Positions 3,741 through 64,000 of a DNA stretch of 64,000 bases are shown one piece after another. Made by a program: the position numbers and the translations under genes. Every line of letters starts with the position of its first letter. The stretch's first letter is position 1. The notes below the pieces were generated by a model. It was given only the letters and a program-made list of their open reading frames with translations. It had not been told where the DNA came from and did no database searches. The stretch is taken from IMG/VR virus record IMGVR_UViG_3300046007_014223, positions 18,802 to 82,801 of that record; one strand, given 5' to 3'. Source of the stretch: a virus.

Positions 3741-3741
3741 A

Positions 3742-7140: not shown

Positions 7141-7484
7141 TCGACTCCCTTGTACAATTTTACTGAATCTTCTGCCAAAGATTTCCCGCGAATGATAGCA
7201 TCATCAACCATACGATTAATAGCTTGCACAAATTTAGGACGCTTTTGTTTAAAGCAAATATCAACCTTACGCTTAATATCAGCTAGTTCCTCATCTGATT
7301 TGGCAGCTTGTGCTGCATCCTCAAGCATCCATGTGCGAATATGAAGGATGACTAGCTTTTCAATAACTTCACCCAAGTTATCTGTTGGGATGTATTCTTC
7401 AATGTCAGGCATTTGTCTTTTCGTTAATACATCTTCAACGGTTCGAATAATAATACCTTCTAGTTCTTCAGCAAATATCGTCAT
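7137..7484 (-). CDS. small conserved helical protein of unknown function
   Basis: I do not recognise this 115-residue protein. It is rich in charged residues and mostly helical in appearance, with EELEGIIIRTVEDVL near the N-terminus and an EELADIKRKVDICF segment in the middle. No signal peptide or membrane segment is seen. I chose the ATG at 7484 because GGAGG lies 6 bases upstream; the alternative ATG at 7490 directly abuts that site. It overlaps the end of the ColD-like gene by 17 bases and the next gene by 4, so it is embedded in the sugar operon and could be an accessory factor of the enzymes beside it. Confidence 0.75.
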   Translation of the reverse strand: MTIFAEELEGIIIRTVEDVLTKRQMPDIEEYIPTDNLGEVIEKLVILHIRTWMLEDAAQAAKSDEELADIKRKVDICFKQKRPKFVQAINRMVDDAIIRGKSLAEDSVKLYKGVE

Positions 7485-8646: not shown

Positions 8647-9578
8647 AGGAATCTCCCTCGATTTTCTTTAAACCATGCAATCGTTCTTGCAAGTCCCTCA
8701 TCAAACGATACCTTAGGCTTCCATCCAAGATCGAATAGTTTTGTGTTGTCTAGTTTTCTTCTAGGTGTGCCGTTTGGTTTGTCTGTGTTCCAAAAAATTT
8801 CACCGCTGTATCCCACCTCACGTTTAATAATTTCAGAAAGCTCTTTGATTGTAATTTCTACATCACTTCCCACATTAATATGTTCTGATGAGTTGTATTC
8901 ATTCATTAAAAATAAACAGGCGTCTGCTAGATCATCAACATAAAGAAACTCACGTGTCGGAGAACCATCACCCCATGCCTCAACAGTGTCTTGTCCTTCA
9001 AGTTTGGCATTGTAAAATTTATTAATGAGACCTGGAATTACATGACACTTATCAGGAAAGAAATTATCATTAGGTCCATACAAATTTGCAGGCATCAAAC
9101 TAATAGTGTTCAACCCATACTGCTTTGTGTAATACTTAGCCATCGTTAATCCTGCAATCTTTGCGAGCGCGTATGCATCATTCGTTGGTTCCAGCTTTGC
9201 TGATAGCAGGTATTCTTCTTTGATCGGTTGAGGTGTGACTTTAGGATAAATGCACGCCGAACCCAAAAACAATAATTTCTTTACACCTGTTTTATAAGCT
9301 GCATCAATCACATTTGATTGAATCATCAGATTATCATAAATGAAATCTGCAGGGTGTGTTGCATTGAAATTGATACCGCCGACCTTTGCTGCAGCGAGAA
9401 AAACATGCTCAGGTCGATACGTTCGAAAAAAATATTTGACAGATTCCTGATCACGTAAATCTAATGAATCTTTTGGTCGTACAATAATATCCTTGTAACC
9501 ATTTTCAGTTAGTTTTTTTACAAGAGCAGTCCCCACCAACCCGTTTCCTGCTACGTATATTCTGCTATTCTTATCCAT
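8643..9578 (-). CDS. fcl: GDP-L-fucose synthase / GDP-colitose synthase-like epimerase-reductase
   Basis: The 311-residue protein aligns closely with GDP-L-fucose synthase. The catalytic residues fall at the E. coli positions: S107 and C109 in GSACIYPK, Y136 and K140 in YALAK, and H179 in CHVIPG. The N-terminal dinucleotide motif is GNGLVG, one residue shorter than the usual form. The enzyme performs 3,5- or 5-epimerisation and C4 reduction of a GDP-4-keto sugar. Because a ColD-like dehydratase follows, the true product could be GDP-colitose (ColC reaction) rather than GDP-fucose; the two families are homologous and cannot be separated by eye. It overlaps gmd by 8 bases. Confidence 0.88.
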
Positions 9579-10575
9579 GAATGCACATCTCCTCTACCAA
9601 ATCATTAAAACTATATTCAGGTTTCCAACCTAACACAGTTCTTGCCTTAGTAGAATCCCCCAACAATGTTTCTACCTCAGCAGGCCTAAAATACTTCAGA
9701 TCAACGTCTACAATAGTTTTTCCTGTATTCGTATCGACACCAACTTCATCAACACCTTCACCATACCATTCAATATTCATATCAAAATATGGTGCACACC
9801 GTTCAACAAATTGCTTTACTGAATATTGTTCACCTGTCGCAATCACAAAATCTTCTGCAGTATGATGTTGTAGGATCATCCACATTGCTCGACTATAGTC
9901 CTTAGCATGCCCCCAATCTCGCAAGGCATTTAGATTGCCTAAGGTTACTTTTTGTTGTTTTCCTCTACGAACATTTCGCAATCCATCAACAATCTTCTTC
10001 GTTACAAAGTTGTGACCGCGTCGAGGACTCTCATGGTTAAACAGAATACCTGAACAAGCAAACATGTTGTATGCCTCGCGATAATTCTTTACAATCCAGA
10101 ACCCATACAATTTTGCAACGCCATAGGGACTCCTCGGATAGAACGGCGTGCGCTCAGTTTGCGGAGTCTCTTGTACAAGGCCATAGAGCTCTGACGTAGA
10201 TGCCTGGTAAATCCTTACATCCTTTTCCATGCCCAATAGGCGAACTGCCTCAAGAACTTTCAACGTGCCCAAGCCATCAACCATTGCTGTGTACTCAGGT
10301 GTCTCAAAGGAAACCTTTACGTGACTCTGTGCAGCCAGATTATAAATTTCTTGTGGTTGTACTTTTTTGATGACTCCCATTATTGTCAGAGAATCAGTAA
10401 CATCACCATAGTGCAGCTTTAGTTTTGGATTGCTATATAGATGATCAATCCTACCAGTATTGATAGATGAACTTCTGCGAATAATGCCGTGAACATTATA
10501 ACCTTTTTCAAGCAATATTTCGGCTAGGTAGGAACCATCTTGACCCGTGATTCCTGTGATTAGAGCGGTTTTCAT
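9571..10575 (-). CDS. gmd: GDP-mannose 4,6-dehydratase
   Basis: The 334-residue product is a near full-length GDP-mannose 4,6-dehydratase, which converts GDP-mannose to GDP-4-keto-6-deoxymannose. Motifs are [13 protein letters not shown] (NADP binding, about 8-20), the ASTSELYG active-site segment, the YGVAK catalytic Tyr/Lys pair and FNHESPRRG, all standard for the family. It is the first gene of the minus-strand sugar operon. AGGTGA precedes the ATG at good spacing, and a TATAAATA late-promoter element lies about 30 bases upstream. GDP-mannose itself would come from the host. It feeds both the Fcl-like and ColD-like enzymes directly downstream. Confidence 0.95.
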
Positions 10576-46877: not shown

Positions 46878-49800
46878 TTATTTAGATTCAATCGCCTCAA
46901 TTCTTGCTTTTAATTGATCAATCTCCGCTGACATTTCTTTTATAGCATTAACCAGAATAGGTATCAAATAATCGCTTGTTATTTGTAACTTATCTGGAGT
47001 ATCGTCACTGACGATAACCTTTTCAACACCCTCTAATGCTGCAATTTCTTGTGCACTAAATCCATAACGTTTTTTATTTGGAGGATCAGTAATTTCATTC
47101 GTTATACGGTTTTTGAATGCATAAGCTATAGGATTAACATTACTTAAAAATCCTCTTCCATGTGGGACAGGGCCGAAAATACATTTATCACGAATATCAG
47201 AAACAGCTGTCCAAGCAATTTGTATTTGAGCACAAGCGTGGGAGCTATTGCCCATAATAATACGATTTGATTCAGTCGTTATGTTTGCAAGACCAGTAGC
47301 TCCTACCCCACTACAACATCCGAAGAATATGTTATTAGTACCTGTAGTGTTACAATTTCCGGCACACAAACCAGCAAAAAGATTATGATTTCCATTAATA
47401 CTTTCTATACCTGCCGATGTTCCTATAAAAATATTATGATTTCCCGTAGTATTTGAAAACCCCGCGGCCCACCCAATAAACGTATTATAAGTGCCGGAAT
47501 CATTACAATAACCTGTAGCTCTGCCAATAAAGTTATTGTGACAACCATTGACATTATTTGTACCTGCAGAAGTACCAATAAACGTATTATAAGTGCCAAT
47601 ATTATAAGCACCTGATGCAGTGTTTTCTCCTATAAAGATGTTTTTTGACCCGGTTGTATTTCTATAACCTGCATTTTTACCTAGAGCAATATTTAAATTA
47701 CCTGTAGTATTATTATATCCTGCGTCGAGACCAAAGAAGTTATTATAACAACCTGTAGTATTACATCCACCTGCATTACGACCAAAGAAATTATTATGAT
47801 TACCTGTTGTGTTACTTAAAGCTGTTAATGTTCCGAAGAAATTATTATAACTACCTGTGGTATTCTTATTTCCTGCACTTAATCCAAAAAAGTTATTATT
47901 GCAACCTGTACTATTACAACAACCTGCGCCATTACCAAAGAAGTTATTATGAATACCTGTAGTATTGTAACGACCCGCATAACGACCAAAGAAACTATTA
48001 TTACAACCTGTGGTATTACAACGACCCGCACTTAATCCAAAAAAGTTGTTGTCACAGCCAGTAGTATTTAAACAACCTGTAGCGCGCCCAAAGAAGTTGT
48101 TGTTCCTGGCTGTCGTATTGCCGCATCCAGCACACCGTCCTAAGAAGTTATTATCACAACCTGTGGTATTACAACGACCTGCATTTTCTCCAATAAAGTT
48201 ATTGTAGGAACCTGTAGTATTGTAACGACCCGCCCAAAATCCAAAGAAGCTATTATGAACACCTGTAGTATTTAAACATCCTGCGTAACAACCAAAGAAG
48301 TTATTATTACAACCTGTAGTATTGCAGAACCCAGCACGGCGGCCAATGAAGATGTTTTCACAGCCGATGGTGTTGTTGTACCCCGCAAAAAAACCAAAGA
48401 AGTTATTTGAAACGCCTGTAGTGTTACTACGACCTGCACTAAATCCGGCAAAGAAATTATATGATCCAAATGTTGTACAACGACCTGCATACCGTCCAAT
48501 AAAGATATTATGACAACCTGTTGCTGTTAATGCACAGGCATCAACAACAGTAAAGTTCTTTTGTGCATCTAATGTTGCTCCACCACCCCCACCTGCACTA
48601 ATGGTCACATTAGACGCTGCAGTAATACGACCTTGTGCGTCAACTGTTATCACAGGAACTATAGTAGAATTTCCATAAGTGGCTGCCGTTACACCACTAG
48701 TAGCTAACCCAACAGTGATTACGTTACCTTCACCTGTAGTACCTGTTGCTGTTATACCTGTACCACCAACAACACGATCTGTGTAGTTTCCTGTTGTATC
48801 TGTTCCAAGTGCAACAGAGTTTGACGCAACAGTTAATGTTACATCTAATGAATTAGTATTTTGATTGGTTAAGTTAAGATTAGCTGTACCTGTTACATCA
48901 CCCGTAAATCTTAAATTAACCGCAGGTTTGTTTGTTGTTATACCATAATTTCTATCAATAGCTACATTAGATGCACTTGTTACTCTACCCGTAGTATCAA
49001 CTGTTACTTGTGATACCACATTTGCATTACCGTAACTACCTGCTGTAACACCACTGGTAGCTAATGCAACAGTGATTACGTTACCTTCACCTGTAGTACC
49101 TGTAGCAGTAATACCTGTGCCTCCAACAACACGATCTGTGTAGTTTCCTGTTGTATCTGTTCCTAAGGCAACAGAATTGGTTGCGACAGTTAATGTTACA
49201 TCTAATGAATTAGTATTTTGATTGGTTAAGTTAAGATTAGCTGTACCCGTAACATCGCCAGTAAATCTTAAATTAACCGCAGGTTTGTTTGTAGTTATAC
49301 CATAATTTCTATCAATTAATAAGTTGGCTGCTGATGTTACTCTACCAGTAGTATCAAGTGTTACTCGTGGCACAGCATTTGCATTACCGTAACTGCCCGC
49401 AGTTACACCACTGGTAGCTAATGCAACAGTTATAACATTACCTTCATCTGCTGTACCTGTAGCAGTAATACCTGTACCTCCAACAACACGATTTGTGTAG
49501 TTTCCTGTTGTATCTGTACCTAAAGCGACAGAGTTTGTTGCTATCGTAGTTGTTATTGATATAACAGTTGAATTAGCCGTCAAAACTGCGTTTGCTGTTC
49601 CGGTAACATCACCTGTTAATATTATATTAGCCGCAGGATCATTAACAAAATTATTATAGTTTAAATAATACGTTGAATCTTGTCCGTCTAGTAAGTCTGA
49701 ATCACTTGCCTTTGCCGTTAATCCTAAGTAACGTGTATCAAGGTTAGCTGTAGCTACTGAAGCTGCTGTTACATGCCCAAATGTATCGAATTCTAAAGAT

Positions 49801-51086
49801 ACGTCCTGAATGACAATACCATTTGAGTTGTCACTAGATACGTTTGCTACAGAGCTAGTATCAGCATGTGAGACGGTTATAACATTACCTTCGTCGGCTG
49901 TACCTGTTGCTGTTATACCCGTTCCTGCGACAACTGTATTAGTATAATTTCCTGTTGTATCTGTTCCTAAAGCGACAGAGTTTGTTGCTACAGTTAATGT
50001 TACATCTAATGAATTAGTATTTTGATTGGTTAAGTTAAGATTAGCTGTACCAGTAACATCTCCAGTAAAGTTTAAATTAACCGCAGGTTTGTTTGTTGTT
50101 ATACCATAATTTCTATCAATTAATAGGTTAGATGCACTAGTTACTCTACCAGTAGCGTCTACAGTAATTTGTGACACAGCATTTGCATTACCGTAAATAC
50201 CTGCCGTTACTCCGCTTGTTCCTAAACCAACTGTAATTACGTTACCTTCACCTGTAGTGCCTGTTGCTGTTATACCTGTACCACCAACAACCCTATCGGT
50301 ATAGTTTCCTGTTGTATCTGTTCCTAAAGCGACAGAGTTTGCTCCAACAGTTAATGATACATCCAAGGAATTAGTATTTTGATTACTTAAGTTAAGATTA
50401 GCTGTACCTGTTACATCACCCGTAAATCTTAAATTAACTGCAGGTTTGTTTGTAATAGACGCATAAGCGGGTGTTGCTGTTACATTAGATGCGCTTGTAA
50501 TTCTTCCCTTAGCATCTACGGTAATGGCAGGTATACTTGTCACCCCACCATATGTGGTAGCAACTACTCCTGAATTGGGAAGTGAGGTTGAACTTCCTAA
50601 AGTGCCTGTAATATTTCCGCTCACACTAATGTTGCCTGCAACCACATTATTTGTAGCAATCAAATTAGCCGCAATGATGTTTGCTGATGCAACTACAGAG
50701 TTTCCAGTATTTGTGGTAAGTGTTATGCTGTTACCTTGCAAATCACCATTTACATTTAGTTTAAATCCTCCATCAGTCGCTGTTCCGATGAGAACGTTTC
50801 CACTGTATTGCGCTATGCGAACTTGACCCGTATCATACACTTCTAGAGAAGGGATACCTGATATATCATTTACACTGTAAATAACACCTGTCAAAGAGTT
50901 TTCTATACTAAAAAGCTGACCCGCACTTCCTTCCCAACTTAATGTGCCATTTCCTGTGGGATATGTTCGAACTGTTATATTATAAGGACCTAATGTTGCA
51001 TTTCCTGCAGTAAAAACTATCTTCGGATCATCAACAGACGATCCTTTATTAGGTGTAATTACAATATCTTTATCGGTATTTGCCAT
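46878..51086 (-). CDS. giant repeat tail-fibre protein with S74 chaperone domain
   Basis: The 1402-residue protein is modular. Residues about 1-180 form a head with a region similar to other fibres. About 180-850 hold 119-residue repeats (motifs FTGDVTGTANLNL, GTDTTGNYT, GTGITATG). About 852-1252 hold roughly 23 copies of a 17-residue repeat (NNFFGxxAGxxNTTGxx), rich in Cys. The end (about 1290-1402) is an S74 intramolecular chaperone starting at SDIRDKCIFGPVPHG and containing KRYGFSAQEIAALEG, with a coiled-coil tail. Such chaperones trimerise fibres and are then cleaved off. It is likely the receptor-binding or long fibre component. Confidence 0.9.
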   Translation of the reverse strand: MANTDKDIVITPNKGSSVDDPKIVFTAGNATLGPYNITVRTYPTGNGTLSWEGSAGQLFSIENSLTGVIYSVNDISGIPSLEVYDTGQVRIAQYSGNVLIGTATDGGFKLNVNGDLQGNSITLTTNTGNSVVASANIIAANLIATNNVVAGNISVSGNITGTLGSSTSLPNSGVVATTYGGVTSIPAITVDAKGRITSASNVTATPAYASITNKPAVNLRFTGDVTGTANLNLSNQNTNSLDVSLTVGANSVALGTDTTGNYTDRVVGGTGITATGTTGEGNVITVGLGTSGVTAGIYGNANAVSQITVDATGRVTSASNLLIDRNYGITTNKPAVNLNFTGDVTGTANLNLTNQNTNSLDVTLTVATNSVALGTDTTGNYTNTVVAGTGITATGTADEGNVITVSHADTSSVANVSSDNSNGIVIQDVSLEFDTFGHVTAASVATANLDTRYLGLTAKASDSDLLDGQDSTYYLNYNNFVNDPAANIILTGDVTGTANAVLTANSTVISITTTIATNSVALGTDTTGNYTNRVVGGTGITATGTADEGNVITVALATSGVTAGSYGNANAVPRVTLDTTGRVTSAANLLIDRNYGITTNKPAVNLRFTGDVTGTANLNLTNQNTNSLDVTLTVATNSVALGTDTTGNYTDRVVGGTGITATGTTGEGNVITVALATSGVTAGSYGNANVVSQVTVDTTGRVTSASNVAIDRNYGITTNKPAVNLRFTGDVTGTANLNLTNQNTNSLDVTLTVASNSVALGTDTTGNYTDRVVGGTGITATGTTGEGNVITVGLATSGVTAATYGNSTIVPVITVDAQGRITAASNVTISAGGGGGATLDAQKNFTVVDACALTATGCHNIFIGRYAGRCTTFGSYNFFAGFSAGRSNTTGVSNNFFGFFAGYNNTIGCENIFIGRRAGFCNTTGCNNNFFGCYAGCLNTTGVHNSFFGFWAGRYNTTGSYNNFIGENAGRCNTTGCDNNFLGRCAGCGNTTARNNNFFGRATGCLNTTGCDNNFFGLSAGRCNTTGCNNSFFGRYAGRYNTTGIHNNFFGNGAGCCNSTGCNNNFFGLSAGNKNTTGSYNNFFGTLTALSNTTGNHNNFFGRNAGGCNTTGCYNNFFGLDAGYNNTTGNLNIALGKNAGYRNTTGSKNIFIGENTASGAYNIGTYNTFIGTSAGTNNVNGCHNNFIGRATGYCNDSGTYNTFIGWAAGFSNTTGNHNIFIGTSAGIESINGNHNLFAGLCAGNCNTTGTNNIFFGCCSGVGATGLANITTESNRIIMGNSSHACAQIQIAWTAVSDIRDKCIFGPVPHGRGFLSNVNPIAYAFKNRITNEITDPPNKKRYGFSAQEIAALEGVEKVIVSDDTPDKLQITSDYLIPILVNAIKEMSAEIDQLKARIEAIESK
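47330..48530 (-). repeat. 51-bp coding repeat array, about 23 units
   Basis: The minus strand encodes a 17-residue repeat unit of the type NNFFGxxAGxxNTTGxx, about 23 times. Units differ mainly at positions around the Ala-Gly and after Asn-Thr-Thr-Gly, and Cys is frequent. Confidence 0.9.
48700..50460 (-). repeat. 357-bp tandem coding repeats
   Basis: Copies of one 119-codon unit recur at fixed spacing: matching segments at about 48841 and 49198 are 357 bases apart, as are those at about 50002 and 50359. A diverged or spacer segment of about 447 extra bases separates the pairs. The unit carries the GDVTGTANLNL and TDTTGNYT motifs. Confidence 0.85.
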
Positions 51087-51356: not shown

Positions 51357-52058
51357 TCATACATTAAACCTGCCTCGAAGAGCATTAAAATTTTGTTGCA
51401 CTTCATTGATATTCAATTCTTTATTATATATTTTAGCCACAGCAATTCTACCTTTCATGTAATTACCGGGAGCATTGTTAAGAGTACTACCCTGTCCCCC
51501 TAAAGAATAATTACCTACGTCAGGTGATCCTGTGGGCGATCCATTTGCACTACTACTCACTGTTCCGTTTATGTATAGGTTTACATTTGATGTACCGTCC
51601 CATGTTCCTACGATATGTACCCAAGTATTACTTGTCACAGTCCCATATACTTGAATTGTAGCTGTATCGTGTCTCAACCACATTCCGACTTCATTATCAA
51701 CATTTCTTCTTATTAAGCCAAAAGTGCCAGCTGTGCTACCCCGACTAAACAATCCTCCACGATTCGTGTTATGCCATGTGCCATCCGAGTCAAAATATGT
51801 CCACATTTCGAAAGAAGTGGGTTGACTCCATGTAGAGGGATAAGTTATCCCTGCTGTAACCATTGCAGAGTTTACAGTGGCATCTAAACCAAAATAACCA
51901 GAAGTATTGTAAAGAGTGTTTGCTCCTAGTGTTGCGTATGAACTATCTAAAAGTCCTGTCCACGTTAGTCCATTACCTGAATAACTTTTTAAATTTATAG
52001 CATCTAAATACAACTGTAATCTACTGGTGACAATACTGGGGCTATGACGTAAACTCAT
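51357..52058 (-). CDS. LamG/concanavalin-like fibre-associated protein
   Basis: The 233-residue protein has the LamG-type jelly-roll pattern: SPSIVTSRLQLYLDAIN, a QPTSFEMWTYFD strand, NTWVHIVGTWDGTSNVNLYI and, at the end, KIYNKELNINEVQQNFNALRG. Such domains bind carbohydrates. It is a clear paralogue of the next gene upstream on the strand (both end NFxALRGRxNV), with a 4-base overlap. It probably decorates the fibres and binds host glycans. Confidence 0.85.
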   Translation of the reverse strand: MSLRHSPSIVTSRLQLYLDAINLKSYSGNGLTWTGLLDSSYATLGANTLYNTSGYFGLDATVNSAMVTAGITYPSTWSQPTSFEMWTYFDSDGTWHNTNRGGLFSRGSTAGTFGLIRRNVDNEVGMWLRHDTATIQVYGTVTSNTWVHIVGTWDGTSNVNLYINGTVSSSANGSPTGSPDVGNYSLGGQGSTLNNAPGNYMKGRIAVAKIYNKELNINEVQQNFNALRGRFNV

Positions 52059-52744
52059 ACGTTATATCTCCCACGCAAGGCTTGAAAGTTTTGTAAAATT
52101 TCTGAATCACTTAATGTTCTATTGTAAAATACTACATTGGAATACTTTCCAATAAAGCATTGAGATGATTGAAATCCACTTTCAACACCATCTTGTTCTT
52201 GACCCATAACGATTGCTCCAGTTATAGTTAATGTAGTAGAAGGACATGCTGCTGTTCCCTGATCAACCCCATTTAAAAATAACCCCATTGTTGTCCCACC
52301 GGTCCTATAGAATACAAAATTATACCATGTATTATTCTGAAATGTATAATTAAATGTACTATAAGTTGTGTCTATTAATGTTTGGATATAAGTGTTATAC
52401 CACTCAACAGAAAAATTGTTCCCTCCAGTATTTGTTGCATGAAATAAAGTATTCAAATTTCCAGAAGTAATAGATGTTGCATTCACCCACAATGATAAAG
52501 TAAAATCTGTAATATTAGAAATTACTGAGTTTGGTATTAAGATGTAATTTGTAATATTTGCACTACTACCTAAATCGATAGTTTTGTCATTGAACGTAGT
52601 AGTTCCCTTTAAAATTCCGTTATTTCCAAGACCACTCAAATCAACCCAAGTGTTCCCGCTACCTAGATAGCTTTTTATGTTAGCTGCATCTAAACACAGC
52701 TGTAATCCATTGGTGACAATACTAGGATTATAAGATACACTCAT
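52055..52744 (-). CDS. LamG/concanavalin-like fibre-associated protein, paralogue
   Basis: The 229-residue protein parallels its neighbour: NPSIVTNGLQLCLDAAN, TDFTLSLWVNATS, NTWYNFVFYRTGG and the end SNVVFYNRTLSDSEILQNF. The pair looks like a tandem duplication with divergence outside the strand core. It follows the giant fibre gene by 2 bases. Confidence 0.85.
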   Translation of the reverse strand: MSVSYNPSIVTNGLQLCLDAANIKSYLGSGNTWVDLSGLGNNGILKGTTTFNDKTIDLGSSANITNYILIPNSVISNITDFTLSLWVNATSITSGNLNTLFHATNTGGNNFSVEWYNTYIQTLIDTTYSTFNYTFQNNTWYNFVFYRTGGTTMGLFLNGVDQGTAACPSTTLTITGAIVMGQEQDGVESGFQSSQCFIGKYSNVVFYNRTLSDSEILQNFQALRGRYNV

Positions 52745-52746
52745 CG

Positions 52747-55700
52747 TTATTTTTCTACAACTAATTTATTTACATCTTTTCTTTCTGCAAAAATCATATA
52801 GAAACACTCAATTTTTTTGTCTAATAAGTTATCATTTTTAATGACAACACAATTTTCTGTAATTTTATCGACATACAGCTTTTGATGTTTACCTATCGGT
52901 GTTATATTCACAGTTATTGAATCGATACTTACTAAGTTTTTCCAATAATAGGGTAATTCAATGACTCCCATTTCCTTCTCAGTTAACTTTCCACGAACGT
53001 AAACACCATTTTCGGGGCCTTCAAGCGATCCATAAACCAGACGTTTACCTTCAACTGATGGGTGAGGAATATCAAAGGATTTAGTAGTTGCTGCAAATGA
53101 TCCATTAACTTCAAGGGCATATGTCGGATTTATGGTCCTGATTCCGACATTTCCTGCAACAATTAGAGATTTATTCGTTGCTGCGGGTTCAAGGAAGTAT
53201 GAAACGTTTGATGATGAGAAATAAATGTTTGAAAGAACATTACCTGTGAGCGTTGTATTACTATTAGCACCATCATGTAAATAGCGAACAATTGATCCGG
53301 TTGCTAGTATAATTGTATTTGAAGTTGCTCCAGTACAAGAAACAGAACCTAAAATTATGTTATTGTTTCCAGTAGTAATATCAGAGCCAGAATTAAGGCC
53401 CAAGAAGATATTGCAACTACCTGTAGTATTACAAAGACCAGCACTTGCACCAAAGAAGTTGTTATGATTACCTGTTGTGTTTAAACAACCCGCTCCAGGA
53501 CCAAAGAAGTTGTTATTACCCCCTGTTGTATTACAACGACCTGCATTTATTCCAAAAAAGTTATTATAACAACCTGAAGTATTTGAACGCCCTGCAGCTT
53601 GGCCAAATAAGTTATTATGATTACCTGTTGTATTACAAAGACCAGCATTAGGTCCTAAGAAGTTGTTGGAATTACCTGTTGTATTTCCACATCCTGCATT
53701 TTGTCCAAAGAAGTTATTATAAGAACCTATAGTATTTGAACAACCTGCATTAGGTCCTATGAAGTTATTCGAACGACCTGTTGTATTTAAACACCCTGCA
53801 CCTTGTCCAAAGAAGTTATTATAACAACCTGTAGTATTACAACGCCCCGCATTTATACCAAAGAAGGTATTACTATTTCCTGTAGTATTACAACGACCAG
53901 CATTTTGTCCAATGAAAGTATTATAACACCCTGTAGTATTTGAAAACCCTGCTTCTTGACCAAAGAAGTTATTAAAACATCCTGTAGTATTTGAACAACC
54001 TGCATTTAATCCAAAAAAGTTGTTGGAAGCACCTGTCGTATTATTACGTCCTGCTGCAGAACCAAAGAAGTTGTTTCTAATACCTGTAGTATTACAAAGC
54101 CCTGCACTTAATCCAAAAAAGTTATTATTATTACCTGTAGTATTACTACTACCTGCTACATGACCAATGAAGTTATTGTAAGATCCTGTTGTATTTGCAC
54201 AACCTGCTTGTACACCAAAGAAATTATTTGAATTGCCAGTAGTGTTTGAACTACCTGCATTTGCACCAAAGAAGTTGTTTCTAAGGCCTGTAGTATTACA
54301 ATGACCTGCTTCTGGACCAAAGAAGTTATTTTCATTGCCTGTGGTATTACAACGACCTGCAGAGCGACCAAAGAAGTTATTTAAATTGCCAGTTGTATTA
54401 CTACGTCCTGCATTTGAACCAATGAAAGTATTATAACACCCTGTAGTATTTGAAAACCCCGCAGAATTTCCAAAGAAGGTATTATGATTGCCTGTGGTAT
54501 TTAAACATCCTGCGTTTACACCAAAAAAGTTATTCGAACACCCTGTAGTATTTGAAAACCCTGCAGCTTGGCCAAAGAAGTTGTTGTGATTGGCTGTAGT
54601 ATTTGAAAACCCTGCAGAATTTCCAAAGAAGTTGTTCGAACAACCTGTGGTATTTAAACATCCTGCATTTACACCAAAGAAGTTATTCAAACAACCTGTA
54701 GTATTTAAACATCCTGCATTTGCACCAAAAAAGTTATTATTATTACCTGTAGTATTACAACGACCAGCATTTATTCCAATGAAGGTATTATAACAACCTG
54801 TAGTATTTGAACGCCCCGCAGCTTGGCCAAAGAAGTTATTATGATTACCTGTTGTATTACAAAGACCAGCACTAGGTCCAAAGAAGTTATTGGAACCACC
54901 CGTGGTGTTTAAACGACCTGCATAATTACCAAAAAAGTTATTATAACAACCTGTGGTATTATCACGACCAGCTGCACGACCAAAGAAGTTATTCAAACTA
55001 CCTGTGGTATTACAACGACCTGCACTTAATCCAATGAAGGTATTATAACAACCTGTAGTATTTGAAAGACCTGCCTCACATCCAAAGAAACTATTACTAC
55101 TACCTGTTGTATTTAAACATCCTGCGTTTAATCCAAAGAAGTTGTTGTGATTGCCTGTGGTATTTAAACATCCTGCATTTACACCAAAAAAGTTATTCGA
55201 ACACCCTGTAGTATTACAACGACCTGCACTTACACCAAAGAAGTTATTAAAACAACCTGTACTATTATTACGACCTGCATAATTACCAAAGAAGTTGTTA
55301 TTACTACCTGTGGTATTTTCACGACCCGCTGCACGACCAATGAAGGTATTATAACAACCTGTGGTATTTGCACAACCTGCATTTATTCCAAAGAAGTTAT
55401 TATAACTGCCTGTAGTATTACTACGACCTGCTGCACGACCAATGAAGTTATTGGAACCACCCGTGGTGTTTAAAAAACCCGCCTCACATCCAAAGAAGTT
55501 ATTACTACTACCTGTTGTATTTAAACAACCTGAATTTATACCAAAGAAGTTATTAAAACTACCTGTGGTATTACAACGACCTGCAGTTCCCCCAAAGAAG
55601 TTATTATAACTGCCTGTAGTATTACCACGACCTGCTGCAGAACCAAAGAAGTTATTATTATTACCTCCGGTATTTAAACGACCTGCATAATTCCCAAAGA

Positions 55701-58359
55701 AATTGTTACCGGTACCTATAGTATTTTCACGACCCGCTGCACGACCAATGAAGTTGTTATAAGCTCCTGTAGTATTTGAAAGACCTGCCTCACATCCAAA
55801 GAAGTTATTATGACTACCTGTACTATTTAAAAAACCTGCACATAATCCTGCAAAAGTATTAAAATTACCTATACTATTAGAGCGTCCGGCTGATTTACCT
55901 ATGAAGATGTTGTAACTACCTGTTTGATTACAATATCCCGTATTACTTCCAATGAAAACATTATCAGTGCCAGTGTAATTATAATATCCAGAACATTGAC
56001 CCGCAAAGAAATTATTGCTCCCCAGACTATTATAATAACCTGATAATGCTCCAAAGAAAATATTAAATGTTCCTATTGTGTTACACGCACCTGCAGATCT
56101 ACCTATAAAAACATTACAACCCCCTGTAGTATTTTCGAATGCAGTTAAAGGTCCAAAGAAAATGTTATCATTGCCTGTAGTGTTTTTTCTACCAGTGCAA
56201 TCACCTAGAAAAATATTCCTTGCACCGGATGTATTTTCACATCCTGCGTTTACACCCATAAAAATATTTCTTAACCCCGTGGAGTTAGTGAATCCTGCAC
56301 ATCTGCCTGCAAAGAAATTATATTTTCCAAATGTTGTACAACGACCCGCATCTTGTCCGACAAAAATGTTGTGACAACCTGTTGCTGTTAATGCACAGGC
56401 ATCAACAACAGTAAAGTTCTTTTGTGCATCTAATGTTGCTCCACCAACCCCCGACAAATTTATTGCCACATTAGACGCTGCGGTAATACGACCTTGTGCA
56501 TCAACAGTGATTACTGGAATTATATTAGAACTTCCATAAGAATTAGCAGTAACTCCAGTATTTGTTAGACCAACAGTTATAACATTACCTTCATCTGCTG
56601 TACCTGTTGCTGTTATACCCGTTCCTGCGACAACACGATTTGTATAATTGCCTGTTGTATCTGTTCCTAAAGCGACAGAGTTTGCTCCAACAGTTAATGT
56701 TACATCTAATGAATTGGTATTTTGATTAGATAGATTCAGATTAGCTGTACCTGTTACATCACCCGTAAATCTTAAATTAACCGCAGGTTTGTTTGTTACT
56801 GTTCCGTAATTTCTATCAATTAATAGGTTAGATGCTGCAGTAATGCGTCCTGTAGCGTCAACAGTTACTTGTGATACTGCATTTGCATTGCCATAACTGC
56901 CCGCAGTTACACCACTGGTAGCTAATGCAACAGTAATAACATTACCTTCATCAGCAGTGCCCGTAGCAGTTAAACCGGTTCCTGCAACAACACGATTTGT
57001 ATAATTGCCTGTTGTATCTGTTCCTAAAGCGACAGAGTTTGCTCCAACAGTTAATGCAATCGATAATGAGTTAGTATTATTATTGGCAAGATTTACTCCC
57101 CCCGAACCTGTAACATCTCCTGTAAACGTTAAGTTAATTGAGGGTTTATTTGTATGATTTGCCCAATCAAGATAATATGTTCCTTGCTGGTTATCAAGCA
57201 GATCAGCATTTAAGTTAATTACAGTATTTGAATCAGTGACATTTATTCTATTTGAATATAAAATGTTTGCTGCAAAATTTGCTAATCTAAATGAAGCATT
57301 CGCTGTATCGATGTTAACATTTAACGATGGCTCTATAGGGTATTGATCAAATACTTTCCATATACCATTATCTGAAGCATCTCTAAAGAAACCCGCATGA
57401 ACATTAGAACCAGTATTATAATGCCCAATAATACCAAAATCAGTAACATCTGAAATATTATTCTTAGCAATTTGAATAAGATTATCTTCAATAATTAAGT
57501 TATTGGCTCCAATTGTTGTTACGTTGCCACTAAATGTAATATTACCTTGAAAATCGATGGGGCCAGTTACAAACTGTGCCGAACCTGCCGAAAGTCTTAA
57601 AAATCTAGAATCAAGATCTGTTGTTGTAACAGATGCTGCAGTCACATGCCCAAATGTATCAAATCCTAATGTTACATCTTGTATTACTACACCATTTGAA
57701 TTATCGCTTGAAACATTCGCAACTGAACTTGTATCAGCATGAGAAACAGTAATTACGTTACCTTCATCTGCTGTACCTGTAGCAGTAATACCCGTTCCTG
57801 CGACAACTCTATTAGTATAGTTTCCTGTTGTATCTGTTCCTAATGCTACACTATTCGCTTGAATCGTTGTTGTTATTGATATAACAGTTGAGTTAGCTGT
57901 CAAAACTGCGTTAGCAGAACCACTAACATCACCTGTTAATACTATATTAGCCGCAGGATCATTAACAAAATTATTATAATTTAAATAATACGTTGAATTT
58001 TGACCATCAAAAAGATCAGCATCTAATCCTGAACCTGCGCCGTCTACTTGCAAAATACTTGAAAGAAGATTTGCGTTACTGACTTCACCTGTAAAGGAAC
58101 CAACTGATATAACTGTTCCTTGAGAATTTACAGGAACCCATGCATTACTGGCAGTTAACCAAGTTAAGACTTGAGCATTTGCAGGTGCAGTGTTCGCTAC
58201 GCTACGCCCACGTAATCCGATAACCGTAGGAAAAAAGACATTTCCCCCGAGATCGCCACCAAGCTCGGTTTTGAATAAATTGAGGTTAGAAAAGTTATTA
58301 TCAACCTCAGAATTTGTTAAGGGCGTTCCCTTAACTAAACGTAACGTTACATTAGCCAT
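52747..58359 (-). CDS. giant repeat tail-fibre protein, 1870 residues
   Basis: This is the largest gene in the window. After an N-terminal part with LVKGTPLTNSEVDNNFSNL and a LDADLFDGQNSTYYL segment, it has diverged 119-residue-type repeats to about residue 650, then about 59 copies of the 17-residue repeat (to about 1666), and a distinct C-terminal domain beginning near KSFDIPHPSVEGKRLVYGS and GPENGVYVRGKL, ending LVVEK. That tail resembles a C-terminal domain found in cyanophage structural proteins and replaces the S74 chaperone of the other two fibres. It is probably a fibre or tail-associated adhesin. Confidence 0.92.
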   Translation of the reverse strand: MANVTLRLVKGTPLTNSEVDNNFSNLNLFKTELGGDLGGNVFFPTVIGLRGRSVANTAPANAQVLTWLTASNAWVPVNSQGTVISVGSFTGEVSNANLLSSILQVDGAGSGLDADLFDGQNSTYYLNYNNFVNDPAANIVLTGDVSGSANAVLTANSTVISITTTIQANSVALGTDTTGNYTNRVVAGTGITATGTADEGNVITVSHADTSSVANVSSDNSNGVVIQDVTLGFDTFGHVTAASVTTTDLDSRFLRLSAGSAQFVTGPIDFQGNITFSGNVTTIGANNLIIEDNLIQIAKNNISDVTDFGIIGHYNTGSNVHAGFFRDASDNGIWKVFDQYPIEPSLNVNIDTANASFRLANFAANILYSNRINVTDSNTVINLNADLLDNQQGTYYLDWANHTNKPSINLTFTGDVTGSGGVNLANNNTNSLSIALTVGANSVALGTDTTGNYTNRVVAGTGLTATGTADEGNVITVALATSGVTAGSYGNANAVSQVTVDATGRITAASNLLIDRNYGTVTNKPAVNLRFTGDVTGTANLNLSNQNTNSLDVTLTVGANSVALGTDTTGNYTNRVVAGTGITATGTADEGNVITVGLTNTGVTANSYGSSNIIPVITVDAQGRITAASNVAINLSGVGGATLDAQKNFTVVDACALTATGCHNIFVGQDAGRCTTFGKYNFFAGRCAGFTNSTGLRNIFMGVNAGCENTSGARNIFLGDCTGRKNTTGNDNIFFGPLTAFENTTGGCNVFIGRSAGACNTIGTFNIFFGALSGYYNSLGSNNFFAGQCSGYYNYTGTDNVFIGSNTGYCNQTGSYNIFIGKSAGRSNSIGNFNTFAGLCAGFLNSTGSHNNFFGCEAGLSNTTGAYNNFIGRAAGRENTIGTGNNFFGNYAGRLNTGGNNNNFFGSAAGRGNTTGSYNNFFGGTAGRCNTTGSFNNFFGINSGCLNTTGSSNNFFGCEAGFLNTTGGSNNFIGRAAGRSNTTGSYNNFFGINAGCANTTGCYNTFIGRAAGRENTTGSNNNFFGNYAGRNNSTGCFNNFFGVSAGRCNTTGCSNNFFGVNAGCLNTTGNHNNFFGLNAGCLNTTGSSNSFFGCEAGLSNTTGCYNTFIGLSAGRCNTTGSLNNFFGRAAGRDNTTGCYNNFFGNYAGRLNTTGGSNNFFGPSAGLCNTTGNHNNFFGQAAGRSNTTGCYNTFIGINAGRCNTTGNNNNFFGANAGCLNTTGCLNNFFGVNAGCLNTTGCSNNFFGNSAGFSNTTANHNNFFGQAAGFSNTTGCSNNFFGVNAGCLNTTGNHNTFFGNSAGFSNTTGCYNTFIGSNAGRSNTTGNLNNFFGRSAGRCNTTGNENNFFGPEAGHCNTTGLRNNFFGANAGSSNTTGNSNNFFGVQAGCANTTGSYNNFIGHVAGSSNTTGNNNNFFGLSAGLCNTTGIRNNFFGSAAGRNNTTGASNNFFGLNAGCSNTTGCFNNFFGQEAGFSNTTGCYNTFIGQNAGRCNTTGNSNTFFGINAGRCNTTGCYNNFFGQGAGCLNTTGRSNNFIGPNAGCSNTIGSYNNFFGQNAGCGNTTGNSNNFLGPNAGLCNTTGNHNNLFGQAAGRSNTSGCYNNFFGINAGRCNTTGGNNNFFGPGAGCLNTTGNHNNFFGASAGLCNTTGSCNIFLGLNSGSDITTGNNNIILGSVSCTGATSNTIILATGSIVRYLHDGANSNTTLTGNVLSNIYFSSSNVSYFLEPAATNKSLIVAGNVGIRTINPTYALEVNGSFAATTKSFDIPHPSVEGKRLVYGSLEGPENGVYVRGKLTEKEMGVIELPYYWKNLVSIDSITVNITPIGKHQKLYVDKITENCVVIKNDNLLDKKIECFYMIFAERKDVNKLVVEK
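53345..56400 (-). repeat. 51-bp coding repeat array, about 59 units
   Basis: About 3 kb of near-continuous 51-base units encode the 17-residue Cys-rich repeat. Neighbouring copies are often almost identical in DNA, indicating recent duplication or exchange. Confidence 0.92.
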
Positions 58360-58366
58360 GTATTAA

Positions 58367-58813
58367 TTAGCTATTGCTAACAGTCCACGTAATCGATAAT
58401 GTATCTGCTGTGCCTTTATTAACAACGTCAAATACTGTACGACAAAGCATTTCACCTGCAACTGCAGCGTTAAAAATTGCAGCTTCGGTGATTGCATTTG
58501 CAGTTGCAGGTGTACCTGGATTGAATGTCGCTACATATGTTACTACGTTTGCATTAGCTGTGCCTGATGTTAACGTTACGCGAGCAGTTTCAGTTCCTAA
58601 AGTTGTATTGTTAAGAGCCGCCGCAGTATTATTTGTTCCGATAGCCATGTGTGACATGATAACGTTCGAATTACTTGCCATGCGATTAGCAATATAATTT
58701 CTACCCGTTTGTACAACAAGATTAGGAACTTTAAAATTTTGTTTTATATTCCCATCACCGTCTATTAAAACAACATCAAGTGATCCTATTGTTTCGATTT
58801 TATCTTTAATCAT
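58367..58813 (-). CDS. fibre-region structural protein
   Basis: This 148-residue protein begins MIKDKIETIGSLDVVLIDGDG and has a long Asn/Thr/Ala-rich beta region (SHMAIGTNNTAAALNN, RVTLTSGTANANVV). I recall similar small proteins in T4-like cyanophage fibre regions. It lies between the giant fibre and the 18-residue-repeat protein, suggesting a connector or baseplate/fibre accessory role; nothing more specific is visible. Confidence 0.72.
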   Translation of the reverse strand: MIKDKIETIGSLDVVLIDGDGNIKQNFKVPNLVVQTGRNYIANRMASNSNVIMSHMAIGTNNTAAALNNTTLGTETARVTLTSGTANANVVTYVATFNPGTPATANAITEAAIFNAAVAGEMLCRTVFDVVNKGTADTLSITWTVSNS

Positions 58814-59914: not shown

Positions 59915-60247
59915 TTACCTTGTAACTTGAGGATAAACAGTTATTATGCCTTCAATTGGTCTTAAAACAACCCCTGCACTTGATATTTCAACATCATAAA
60001 CGTATCTTCCATATTTAAGATTAGCCGTTTGTGAAGGTGTTAATGTTAATGTGAGAGTTCCGTTTGCAGCTTGGAAAACATTAGAGGTAAAGGTAGCAGA
60101 CACAGTGTTAGTTGCATAGTTTCGGCGAATTTGCGCCGCAGGTGTATATCCTGCCAAATCAAAAACAGACCCATCTTCGCCAAAAATTTGCACTGTTGCA
60201 TTAAAAGAAGCACCTTGATCGATGTACAGATTGTTTACTGTTCCCAT
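59915..60247 (-). CDS. small beta-rich tail protein
   Basis: The 110-residue protein is beta-rich: NNLYIDQGASFNATVQIF, a GYTPAAQIRRNYAT loop, GTLTLTLTPSQTANLKYGRY and VYDVEISSAGVVLRPIEG. This resembles a class of small phage tail/baseplate proteins common in cyanophages, but no specific family is certain. Its start overlaps the stop of the fibre gene beyond it (TAATG). Confidence 0.7.
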   Translation of the reverse strand: MGTVNNLYIDQGASFNATVQIFGEDGSVFDLAGYTPAAQIRRNYATNTVSATFTSNVFQAANGTLTLTLTPSQTANLKYGRYVYDVEISSAGVVLRPIEGIITVYPQVTR

Positions 60248-63200
60248 TATAGTCTCTTTTTAAGTTCTTCTACTTCAGCTTTCAAGGCCTCATAATCTTT
60301 TGTAAGCTCTTTAATTGCATTAACTAAGACAGGTATGATATAGTCAGGTGTTAACGAAAGTTTTTCTGTATCATCTATACTTGCGATTACAGGATTATCA
60401 CCCTCAAGTTGTGATATTTCTTGTGCACTAAATCCGTATCTCTTTCTGGTATCAGAAATTTCACCGGTTTCACGGTTTTTAAATGAGTAAGCGATAGGAT
60501 TAACATTACTTAAAAATCCCTTACCATGAGGTACAGGGCCAAATATACACTTATCGCGAATATCAGACACTGTTGACCAACCAATTTGAATTTGAGCGCA
60601 AGTGTGGGCGCTATTGCCCATAATGATACGGTTAGATTGTGTGGTAATGTTAGCAAGGCCAGTAGCTCCTACCCCGCTGTAGGATCCAAAAAATAGATTA
60701 TTACTACCTGTAGTATTTGCACAACCTGCACGATCTCCGAAGAAGTTATTATTATTACCTGTGGTGTTATAAAATCCTGTAGCTTTGCCTAAGAATGTAT
60801 TATTGTAACCTGTGGTGTTACATGCACCTGCCGCTTGCCCCATGAAGTTATTATCATTGGCTGTTGTACGATAACCCGCTCTTTCCCCAAAGAAGTTGTT
60901 ATATTTCCCTGTGGTATTAAAATATCCTGCGTTACATCCAAAGAAATTATTATAAGATCCAGTTGTATTACAATATCCTGTAGAATTTCCAAAGAAGATA
61001 TTAAATTTACCTGTTGTGTTATAACGACCCGCATCAGCCCCAAAGAAGGTATTGCAAGCGCCTATTGTATTTGAACAACCTGCTGCACTACCTATAAAAA
61101 TATTTTTAGCACCTGTTGTGTTGTTACGACCAGCTAAATTGCCCAGGAAAACATTATTATCGCCGATGGTATTAGAAAGACCAGCACTATGTCCGATGAA
61201 AATGTTTCTTGTTCCTGTCGTGTTGCTGTACCCAGCACCTAACCCTGCAAAAAAATTATAATTGCCTGTTGTATTGTATTTTCCTGCACTATCTCCGAGG
61301 AAAATATTTCTATTACCTGTCGTTGTGTCTCTACCTGCTTGTTCACCAATAATAATATTATCTTGAGCTGTTGTGACATTAGCTCCTGCACAAAAACCTA
61401 CAAAGAAATTTCTGGATCCTGATGTTATTGAGTTACCAGCTAAACAACCTAAAGTTATATTTTTTAAACAAGAGTCAATCTTAAATTTTGAGGTACCTCC
61501 CGTAGCCATTATAATGACGTTACTGGTAGAAGCAGTTAATCCAACATTTCCTGTGACACAACCAAAGATAATATTATCATTACCTGTTACAATGTTTCCA
61601 CCACCGCAACAGCCGAGAATAATATTTCTAGAGCCGCTAACTAAACAAGCACCTGCTTCAGATCCGATGATGTTATTATGATTACCGTCAGCTAACATGT
61701 ATCCGCCACGATAACCTATAATGTTATTTAAAGATCCGCTGTTAACTGACGCCGCAGCACACAGTCCAAAGAAGTTATTACAACTTCCAGATGAATTAAA
61801 ATATCCTGCGAAAGATCCAATGAAATTGTTATATTTCCCCGATGAACCGATAGTTCCCGCCCCTGCGCTAACTCCAAAATAGTTATTATAACATCCCGTT
61901 GTAACACCACTGCCCGCTGAGGATCCTATGAAAGAATTATTTCGTCCAGTAGATATACGAATACCCGAACAAGTACCCAAATTAATATTATTGCACACAC
62001 CATCTATTTCAAGTCTCGGTACCCCTCCCGTAGACATAATAATCACGTTACTGGTAGAGGATGTTAACCCCACGCAAGAAGTTAAGCAACCGAAAATTAT
62101 ATTATCATTACCAGTAGCTACATTACCTCCTGAATAATGTCCTAAGTAAATGTGTCTTGAGCCTGAAGTGTTTGTGTCTCCTGCATAACAACCCATGAAT
62201 ATATTATGGCAACCTGTTGTGTTCAAGAACCCGGAACATAATCCAGCGAAGAAATTATGACAGCCTGTAGTATTACAAAAACCTGTACATAGACCAAAAA
62301 AGTTATTATAACAACCTGAAGTATTACGAAAACCTGAATAACTTCCGATGAAGTTATTATTTTTTCCTGCAAGATTACAATTACCTGTATTTCTTCCAAA
62401 GAAGTTATTGCAACTTCCGGTTGTATTAAAACGACCAGCACTTCTTCCAAAGAAGTTATTATAACAACCTGATGTATTACTATAGCCAGAAAGAGTTCCA
62501 AAGAAAAAATTATTATTCGGTGCATCAACCTTAACTATTTGACTACCACCAGTAGCCATAATAATGACGTTACTAGTAGCATCAGACAATCCAACACAAG
62601 AGGCTAAGCAACCAAATATGATATTATCATTGCCTGTTGTTACATTACCTCCTGAATAAACCCCCAAGTAAATGTTTCTATCACCTGTTGTGTTTTCACA
62701 TCCTGAAAAGTTGCCTAAAAATGTGTTACACCTTCCTGTGGTGTTCAATGCCCCGGTTGCATATCCAAAGAATACGTTATTAGAACCAGAGCAATTTTTA
62801 CGCCCAGCTATAGCACCTACAAATGAATTTTGTGCAGCTCCTGCACAAGAATTGCATCTTCCTGCCTGATTGCCGATAAAAACATTATTATTTGTAGTTA
62901 TATTGCAGTGTCCGGCGTATTTACCCAAAAATACATTATCATTTCCGGTTGTATTACATGATCCTGCACAACTTCCTAGAAATACATTATACGCCCCGTT
63001 AGTATTTCTTAAACCTGCACAATGACCTGCAAAAAAGTTTCTGCAGCCAATGGTATTGCAACCCCCAGCGAAAGCCCCAATGAAGGTGTTATAAATTCCA
63101 GTGGTGTTTCTATATCCAGCATTACTACCCATAAAGATATTATAGTTACCTCTTGTATTATACCTTCCAGCATCTTTTCCTATAAAGGTGTTGTACGATC

Positions 63201-64000
63201 CTGTAGTAGTAGCCATCCCTGCACGTAAACCAAAGAAGGTATTATGGACAGCTGTTAGACCTGGAATAGGTCCTGCTTTAATTGAACTTACCCCGGCACA
63301 TTCACCAACATAAAAATTAGTATAGTTCCCCGCAACATAAAGCCGTGTAATACCCGCCGTTGACATAATTATTTGGTTAGAATCTATGGTAGAGTTATTA
63401 TTAAACCATATATTACCTGTGACACACCCAAAGATAATATTATCACTACCTGTTGTAATATTACCCCCTGCACATGTTCCAACGAGGAAATTTCTACTGC
63501 CTGAGGTAATTAAATTGCCTGCACAAGCCCCGAGGATTGTGTTAAATCCTCCTGATGTTATCTTAAATCCTGAACCAGGCCCAACAATAAAGTTTGGATT
63601 TGAAGTAGTTAAACTTCCAACTGAGGTTTGTGTACATGAGAAAATTGTTTCGTTAGTTTTGTCAAATTGTTGAGTTACGGCCGGAGCAGATGTGCAATAT
63701 GTTGCTGTTGTAACTGCAGTCACGTGACCGCGATCATCAACTGTAATAGATGCAATACCTGAACCGCCTTGTGCTCCAGTTAAAGTAGAGGTATCAGCGT
63801 GATTAACTGTAATTACATTACCTTCATCATTATTGCCTGTAACAGTGATTGCAGTTCCCGCTACAACTCTATCAGTATAGTTTCCTGACGTATTAGTTCC
63901 AAGTGCAATATCAATTGTCGTATCACTTGCACTTGTTATTCTACCTGTTCTATCAACAGTGAATGTACCTACACTGCTAGCTGTACCATATGTCGCTGGA
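60247..64000 (-). CDS. giant repeat tail-fibre protein with S74 chaperone, start beyond the window
   Basis: The frame stays open past a possible GTG at 63723 to the window end, and the added residues continue the fibre theme (GTNTSGNYTDRVVAG, EGNVITVNHADTST), so the gene is cut by the window. At least 1250 residues are visible. The centre (about 60690-63600) has 17-residue repeats broken by four divider segments with GNDNIIFGC and SNVIIMATGG. The C-terminus is an S74 chaperone (SDIRDKCIFGPVPHG, KRYGFSAQEISQLEG) followed by a coiled coil (DYEALKAEVEELKKRL), very similar to the end of the 46878-51086 fibre. Confidence 0.9.
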   Translation of the reverse strand, partial: PATYGTASSVGTFTVDRTGRITSASDTTIDIALGTNTSGNYTDRVVAGTAITVTGNNDEGNVITVNHADTSTLTGAQGGSGIASITVDDRGHVTAVTTATYCTSAPAVTQQFDKTNETIFSCTQTSVGSLTTSNPNFIVGPGSGFKITSGGFNTILGACAGNLITSGSRNFLVGTCAGGNITTGSDNIIFGCVTGNIWFNNNSTIDSNQIIMSTAGITRLYVAGNYTNFYVGECAGVSSIKAGPIPGLTAVHNTFFGLRAGMATTTGSYNTFIGKDAGRYNTRGNYNIFMGSNAGYRNTTGIYNTFIGAFAGGCNTIGCRNFFAGHCAGLRNTNGAYNVFLGSCAGSCNTTGNDNVFLGKYAGHCNITTNNNVFIGNQAGRCNSCAGAAQNSFVGAIAGRKNCSGSNNVFFGYATGALNTTGRCNTFLGNFSGCENTTGDRNIYLGVYSGGNVTTGNDNIIFGCLASCVGLSDATSNVIIMATGGSQIVKVDAPNNNFFFGTLSGYSNTSGCYNNFFGRSAGRFNTTGSCNNFFGRNTGNCNLAGKNNNFIGSYSGFRNTSGCYNNFFGLCTGFCNTTGCHNFFAGLCSGFLNTTGCHNIFMGCYAGDTNTSGSRHIYLGHYSGGNVATGNDNIIFGCLTSCVGLTSSTSNVIIMSTGGVPRLEIDGVCNNINLGTCSGIRISTGRNNSFIGSSAGSGVTTGCYNNYFGVSAGAGTIGSSGKYNNFIGSFAGYFNSSGSCNNFFGLCAAASVNSGSLNNIIGYRGGYMLADGNHNNIIGSEAGACLVSGSRNIILGCCGGGNIVTGNDNIIFGCVTGNVGLTASTSNVIIMATGGTSKFKIDSCLKNITLGCLAGNSITSGSRNFFVGFCAGANVTTAQDNIIIGEQAGRDTTTGNRNIFLGDSAGKYNTTGNYNFFAGLGAGYSNTTGTRNIFIGHSAGLSNTIGDNNVFLGNLAGRNNTTGAKNIFIGSAAGCSNTIGACNTFFGADAGRYNTTGKFNIFFGNSTGYCNTTGSYNNFFGCNAGYFNTTGKYNNFFGERAGYRTTANDNNFMGQAAGACNTTGYNNTFLGKATGFYNTTGNNNNFFGDRAGCANTTGSNNLFFGSYSGVGATGLANITTQSNRIIMGNSAHTCAQIQIGWSTVSDIRDKCIFGPVPHGKGFLSNVNPIAYSFKNRETGEISDTRKRYGFSAQEISQLEGDNPVIASIDDTEKLSLTPDYIIPVLVNAIKELTKDYEALKAEVEELKKRL
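60690..63600 (-). repeat. interrupted 51-bp repeat array with four divider cassettes
   Basis: The 17-residue repeat occurs in several blocks separated by segments coding GNDNIIFGC then SNVIIM(A/S)TGG and a short KVD/EID-like strand. Dividers lie near 61470-61590, 61985-62115, 62510-62640 and 63310-63450. Confidence 0.85.

Follow-up and report, generated by a model that had tools for sequence, protein, structure and literature searches.

A 59-unit, cysteine-enriched 17-residue repeat array in a tail fibre of a T4-like phage

The gene at positions 52747-58359 of the window, by which we mean the whole 64,000-nucleotide stretch of viral DNA analysed here, very probably encodes the shaft of a tail fibre, built from 59 unbroken units of a 17-residue coil whose cysteines all sit at six variable positions. 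The coil itself is already known and widespread, and the enrichment in cysteine belongs to a subset of the phages that carry it. The best explanation, which we hold tentatively, is a trimeric solenoid shaft with dispersed thiols that is remodelled by recombination and possibly cross-linked after lysis.

The 59-unit gene and its fibre cassette

The window belongs to an 82.8-kb IMG/VR contig, which is a fragment. It carries genes for a sheath protein (phrog_23), a portal (phrog_213), the large terminase and a major head protein (phrog_138), as well as T4-type replication and repair genes (SbcC/SbcD-like subunits and a helicase), and on these structural and replication genes the phage is assigned to the T4-like myophages. 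The nearest major head protein is that of Methylophilales phage Melnitz (67%), followed by those of Pelagibacter phages Mosig and HTVC008M. Aminotransferase and nucleotide-sugar epimerase genes at 7468-10575 and 2421-3758 are perhaps a sugar-modification cassette. In the fibre cassette, three genes share the 17-residue repeat and lie with the genes of two LamG-fold proteins and of small tail proteins; its features are as follows.

46878..51086 (-): sister fibre, 1402 aa, about 23 units, S74-like C-terminus (S74 match below the cut-off)
51357..52058 (-): second LamG-fold protein (Pfam Laminin_G_3, 8e-16)
52055..52744 (-): LamG/pentraxin-like lectin-fold protein, immediately 3' of the fibre gene (Pfam Laminin_G_3, 3e-15)
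52747..58359 (-): tail-fibre gene, 1870 aa (phrog_23837, E 5e-72; phrog_4636 'tail spike protein', 6e-40)
52747..53367 (-): its C-terminal domain, 206 aa, not S74 (phrog_17490/28536)
53368..56376 (-): its 59 contiguous 17-residue units, pattern xxNNFFGxxAGxxNTTG, with Cys at 1, 2, 8, 9, 12 and 13 only
56377..58359 (-): its N-terminal region, aa 1-661, with the conserved start and fibre modules of the NSVALGTDTTGNYTxxVV type
58367..58813 (-): 148-aa protein adjoining the fibre gene on its 5' side (phrog_5417), a conserved synteny marker
59915..60247 (-): 110-aa protein (phrog_1084), also matching an L-shaped tail fibre assembly family
60247..63723 (-): sister fibre, 1158 aa, about 45 units, S74 chaperone C-terminus; the frame continues to the window end

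The cassette lies with T4-like structural genes and includes a phrog_1084/3304 neighbour, as in T4-like tail fibres. An earlier note on this DNA had read the gene as a fibre, which the PHROG tail-spike and virion families and the adjacent structural genes support; it had also called the fibre 'secreted-type', for which no feature was seen in this phage tail-fibre gene, and it had missed the two sister genes. The tandem LamG/pentraxin-like pair at 51357-52744, 3' of the 59-unit fibre, may represent tip adhesins.

A register scan of the 1870-aa protein places the units at aa 662-1664 (1003 residues), with 17-residue spacing and no break, so the coordinates, the minus strand and the count of about 59 units given earlier are exact. 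The unit can be written x1 x2 N3 N4 F5 F6 G7 x8 x9 A10 G11 x12 x13 N14 T15 T16 G17. N3 and G7 are invariant across the 59 units, F5, G11, N14 and G17 are almost so, and variation is concentrated in the residue pairs 1-2, 8-9 and 12-13. The units had been described as near-identical, which is overstated: mean pairwise identity is 59% in amino acids and 66% in nucleotides, and just 8 of 1711 unit pairs reach 90% nucleotide identity.

The N-terminal region opens with the conserved motif MANxTLRLVKGxPLTNxEVDxNFSN, and its first ~390 aa are 61% identical to the product of a 526-aa gene that occupies the equivalent position in a related contig (L050) and 58% identical to the counterpart in another (L049). 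The ~259 aa that precede the array (aa 404-662) share 82% identity with the pre-array region of the sister fibre at 46878-51086, the corresponding segments lying at window positions 56374-57150 and 48500-49300. This likeness suggests recombination or gene conversion between two fibre genes within one phage, as judged from the sequences. The same sister fibre contains, at 48683-49541, a 357-bp (119-aa) module repeated 2.4 times with 88% match, of the pattern NSVALGTDTTGNYT...GVTAGSYGNAN...DRNYGITTNKPAVNLRFTGDVTGTANLN, and related modules also occur in the fibre at 52747-58359. At its C-terminus it is 68% identical to the other sister fibre (60247-63723).

The 59-unit gene has no S74 match, and its C-terminal domain is likely the trimerising or receptor-binding head of the fibre. 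This domain is common to many phage fibres that lack the array (39 viral relatives; 24 were inspected, 0/24 with an array). Its AF2 model is poor overall (pLDDT 63.6), with residues 121-200 at pLDDT ~90, and this best-modelled part gives weak fold hints, and hints only, to AP22 gp53 and R-pyocin fibre heads.

Relatives and predicted fold of the repeat

The repeat occurs at about 40 distinct phage loci in IMG/VR scans, with some arrays reaching 81-94 unbroken units. In one such phage (L118, L119, L132), at least two adjoining fibre genes have 81 unbroken units each and are followed by a third. PHROG 23837, 4636 and 6002, which are phage virion repeat proteins with the same 17-residue repeat, match the fibre at E 5e-72, 6e-40 and 9e-41, the profiles aligning over the repeat region in 8-9 stretches. 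Many of these relatives have no repeat cysteines and their arrays are short, whereas the 59 unbroken units here make a long array. Searches by tblastn with the repeat also find fibres of P-SSM2-type cyanophages and of pelagiphages. NTTG-type repeats in Bacteroidota and other bacteria have the tandem pattern x-x-N-T/V-F-I-G-Y-Q-A-G-Y-S-N-T-T-G, as in the phage unit, but at 70 loci on cellular contigs, mostly of Bacteroidota, they are practically free of cysteine, unlike the phage subset. A literature search on exactly this 17-residue repeat found nothing.

An AF2 monomer of 14 units, modelled with 44 blocks from relatives and sister fibres, is a solenoid in which positions 4-6 of each coil form a single strand (pLDDT 84.6, pTM 0.85). 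Searches of the PDB by sequence and by fold gave nothing significant for the array, and none of the Pfam repeat families matched it, including YadA_head and the chlorovirus glycoprotein repeat PF06598 (the latter at E up to 10). Predicted viral proteins in BFVD do match the repeat fold with probability 1.00 and TM up to 0.72, among them phage proteins and proteins of Bodo saltans virus and a marseillevirus. The protein of Marseillevirus LCMAC201 matches at TM 0.72, and a Chlorovirus glyco repeat protein of Tenacibaculum phage pT24 at TM 0.68. The array also resembles the left-handed beta-roll heads of YadA type (e.g., BpaC, PMC9543794), trimeric fibres of stacked short coils: both have a short conserved strand that ends in Gly with an Asn ahead of it (AIG in YadA heads, FFG here). 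However, the YadA period is 14 (GxNSVAIGAxSxAx, in coils of 14-15 residues), compared with 17 in the array.

The shaft is probably a trimeric beta-solenoid or beta-roll, the trimer being assumed by analogy with phage fibres in general. In the proposed coil, N3, F5, F/I6, G7, A10, G11, N14, T15, T16 and G17 build the structure, and the pairs 1-2, 8-9 and 12-13 would lie at the coil turns, facing outwards or towards chain interfaces. Beta-rolls have a measured rise of 4.8 A per coil (PMC9543794), and with the same rise the shaft would be about 28 nm long.

Unit number and recombination

Orthologues of the gene are recognised by the conserved start and by their place after the 148-aa gene. They contain 0 units in L050, which is 91% identical to the window just beyond the fibre cassette, at least 20 in L049 (cut by the contig end) and 59 in the window, so the number of units varies. 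Two further contigs that are 98-99.6% identical (L243 and L245) differ by one block of 5 units (84 aa). Their other 79 units are all identical in DNA, and the additional block is nearly the same as the one beside it; the simple reading is duplication or loss by recombination, although the assembler could also have produced the difference by collapsing a tandem duplication. In a more distant pair (L126 and L287), the flanks are 93-97% alike, yet the arrays have ~62 and 37 units and many units are only 75-88% alike, indicating that an array can diverge faster than its flanks. Where one phage is represented by contigs from several samples, the unit number is the same in all of them, but these contigs are ~100% identical and hence little informative.

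Unit number therefore changes in frame by blocks, together with swaps of cassettes, and in the repeat-fibre family recombination is likely to drive changes in length. The proposal that copy number changes by recombination finds support in these relatives and orthologues, while the claim that it does so rapidly does not, as contigs of the same phage keep their number. Nor can near-identical DNA units be the cause in the 59-unit gene, where mean nucleotide identity is 66%. Unit identity in this gene shows no decay with distance, and recent local duplication, sought through the similarity of nearby units, was rejected for it.

Cysteine placement and its possible role

The array holds 54 cysteines, all at positions 1, 2, 8, 9, 12 and 13 (15, 2, 3, 4, 14 and 16, respectively). 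They fill 54/354 of these sites (15%), compared with 1.2% cysteine in the 33 other ORFs of the window, which is far beyond chance, and the same fibre has 0.5% outside its repeats. Cysteine does recur at set positions, as first noted, within the six variable positions only; RCNTTGC is not a fixed motif, occurring twice in the array. The preference for the six positions is alike in the ~40 phage loci: in 1137 distinct units from other phages, cysteine occupies 21, 8, 7, 18, 9 and 27.5% of positions 1, 2, 8, 9, 12 and 13 and is essentially absent elsewhere in the unit. The IMG/VR scans used a cysteine-containing query, and L049 and L050, found independently of it through the neighbouring 148-aa gene, have repeats with 5-7% cysteine. 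In bacteria, where the query was cysteine-free and whole arrays were counted, each position has 0-0.5% (852 units, 70 loci).

Named phages with cysteine at these positions include marine virus AG-345-L05 and Pelagibacter phage HTVC112P, and the array is free of cysteine in CRP-1, Venkman, Axy12, S-B05 and methanogen virus vir515. Since several phages have the repeat without it, cysteine is dispensable for the shaft. A clear T4-like head protein was present on 5 of 21 cysteine-rich contigs, which are mostly partial.

The arrangement of the cysteines was compared with counts expected from permuting them within arrays, in deduplicated discovery and validation sets. Cysteines at position 13 of adjacent units were seen 41 times in the first set, where 79 were expected, and after deduplication 38 against 77 in the discovery set and 44 against 59 in the validation set. 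Pooled, there are 82 against 136 expected (z -6.6), a ratio of 0.60 (locus-bootstrap CI 0.47-0.76, 44 loci). No other residue at site 13, and cysteine at no other site, avoids its neighbours in this way; adjacent-coil cysteines at 1, 9 and 12 are near neutral. Both sets also avoid two cysteines within one pair (1-2, 8-9 or 12-13), and in the 59-unit array Cys12 and Cys13 are mutually exclusive, while the combination of Cys13 with Cys1 in the subsequent unit occurs 2 times with ~4 expected. Within units, Cys1 together with Cys13 seemed enriched in the first set (90 against 70), an excess that new loci did not reproduce (41 against 38). Across all cysteine-rich phage arrays, Tyr12 is clustered in neighbouring units (138 against 108, z 4.1), which hints at stacking of Tyr along the shaft.

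The repeat cysteines may be functional thiols, which we put forward tentatively, and interchain or inter-fibre disulphides formed after lysis are the leading option. The gene itself very probably encodes a tail fibre, one of three in this T4-like myophage, in which the N-terminal part presumably attaches the fibre to the virion, the 59 coils form the shaft and the C-terminal domain forms the tip, probably with help from the LamG-fold proteins encoded next door. In the cysteine-rich group the small-residue member of each variable pair is often cysteine, placed singly (at most one per pair) and unstacked at site 13, giving dispersed thiols. Oxidation after lysis could produce sparse disulphides between chains or fibres and a stiffer shaft, and the spacing would be kept to avoid wrong bonds between neighbours, while recombination between units and swaps of whole fibre cassettes would alter the length and identity of the shaft. 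A precedent for virion disulphides is Agrobacterium phage Milano, in which disulphides link all tail components, the tailspike and short tail fibre included (PMC10811340). Both cases involve cysteine-rich virion proteins of contractile-tail phages, but Milano has defined cysteine pairs, whereas here the cysteines are dispersed in a repeat array and no covariation pairing replicated. Against this explanation, the fold is an AF2 monomer with no PDB match, and the trimer and the facing of residues are inferred; each of the sites has cysteine in only part of the units, and a search of the 82.8-kb record, itself a fragment, turned up neither thioredoxin nor glutaredoxin.

Cysteine here also replaces Ser, Asn or Ala where small residues are usual, and tolerance by itself could account for this. 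The main rival, possible but doubtful, is that the cysteines have no thiol function: turns that tolerate small residues would have drifted from Ser, Asn or Ala to Cys in one lineage, and neighbouring cysteines would be purged solely because stray disulphides harm folding. The codon TGT is one step from AGT, TAT, CGT and GGT, NNY codon families dominate the variable sites, positions 1, 9 and 13, which take small residues, have the most cysteine, and no fixed cysteine pairing replicates. Cysteine counts at 1, 8, 9 and 13 are also near the expectation from independent base-1 and base-2 frequencies, a weak test as those frequencies include the Cys codons. Drift accounts less readily for cysteine at 26-28% of position 13 when the 852 bacterial units, with the same preference for Ser, Asn and Ala, have practically none, or for its low level in the rest of the same fibre.

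It is improbable that surface thiols take a direct part in adsorption, for instance through thiol-disulphide exchange with host surface components or their reversible capture, with Cys, Tyr, Arg and Asn at the variable turns forming a putative extended, weak-affinity binding surface tuned by recombination. The variable positions are indeed rich in Tyr, Arg, Cys and Asn and vary from unit to unit and among relatives on a constant frame, and arrays can outpace their flanks (L126 and L287); however, the closest pair, with the 5-unit difference, has an otherwise unchanged array, and receptor binding is more simply assigned to the C-terminal domain. Least probable is the stacked cysteine ladder or metal-binding array along the fibre interior that was first proposed, because same-position cysteines, which recur each coil and would stack in a solenoid, instead avoid one another at site 13, their commonest site, and are near neutral at 1, 9 and 12, while no fixed cysteine pair or two-site ligand set replicates across phage loci and HxH motifs, as in iron-binding tail fibres, number 0 in all three fibres. 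As the ladder is contradicted at site 13 and nothing supports a recurrent metal site, dispersed single thiols remain.

The replicated avoidance of neighbouring Cys13 is a structural constraint and suggests that site 13 of successive coils lie close together. The coil is common to phages, giant viruses and bacteria, and only some phages fill its turns with cysteine, in a non-random and non-stacking manner. Gain or loss of whole-unit blocks is a route to new fibre lengths without a break of frame. In its fullest form, which we consider unlikely as a whole, the proposal is that some aquatic phages have converted a widespread cysteine-free solenoid into a covalently set, length-tunable fibre, in which chains or neighbouring fibres become cross-linked only outside the reducing cell, with stiffness and length adjusted through recombination of units. 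If true, selectively spaced thiols would set the fibre covalently after its exit from the reducing cell. Comparison of the natural cysteine-rich and cysteine-free versions of one scaffold makes the role of thiols in a phage fibre directly testable.
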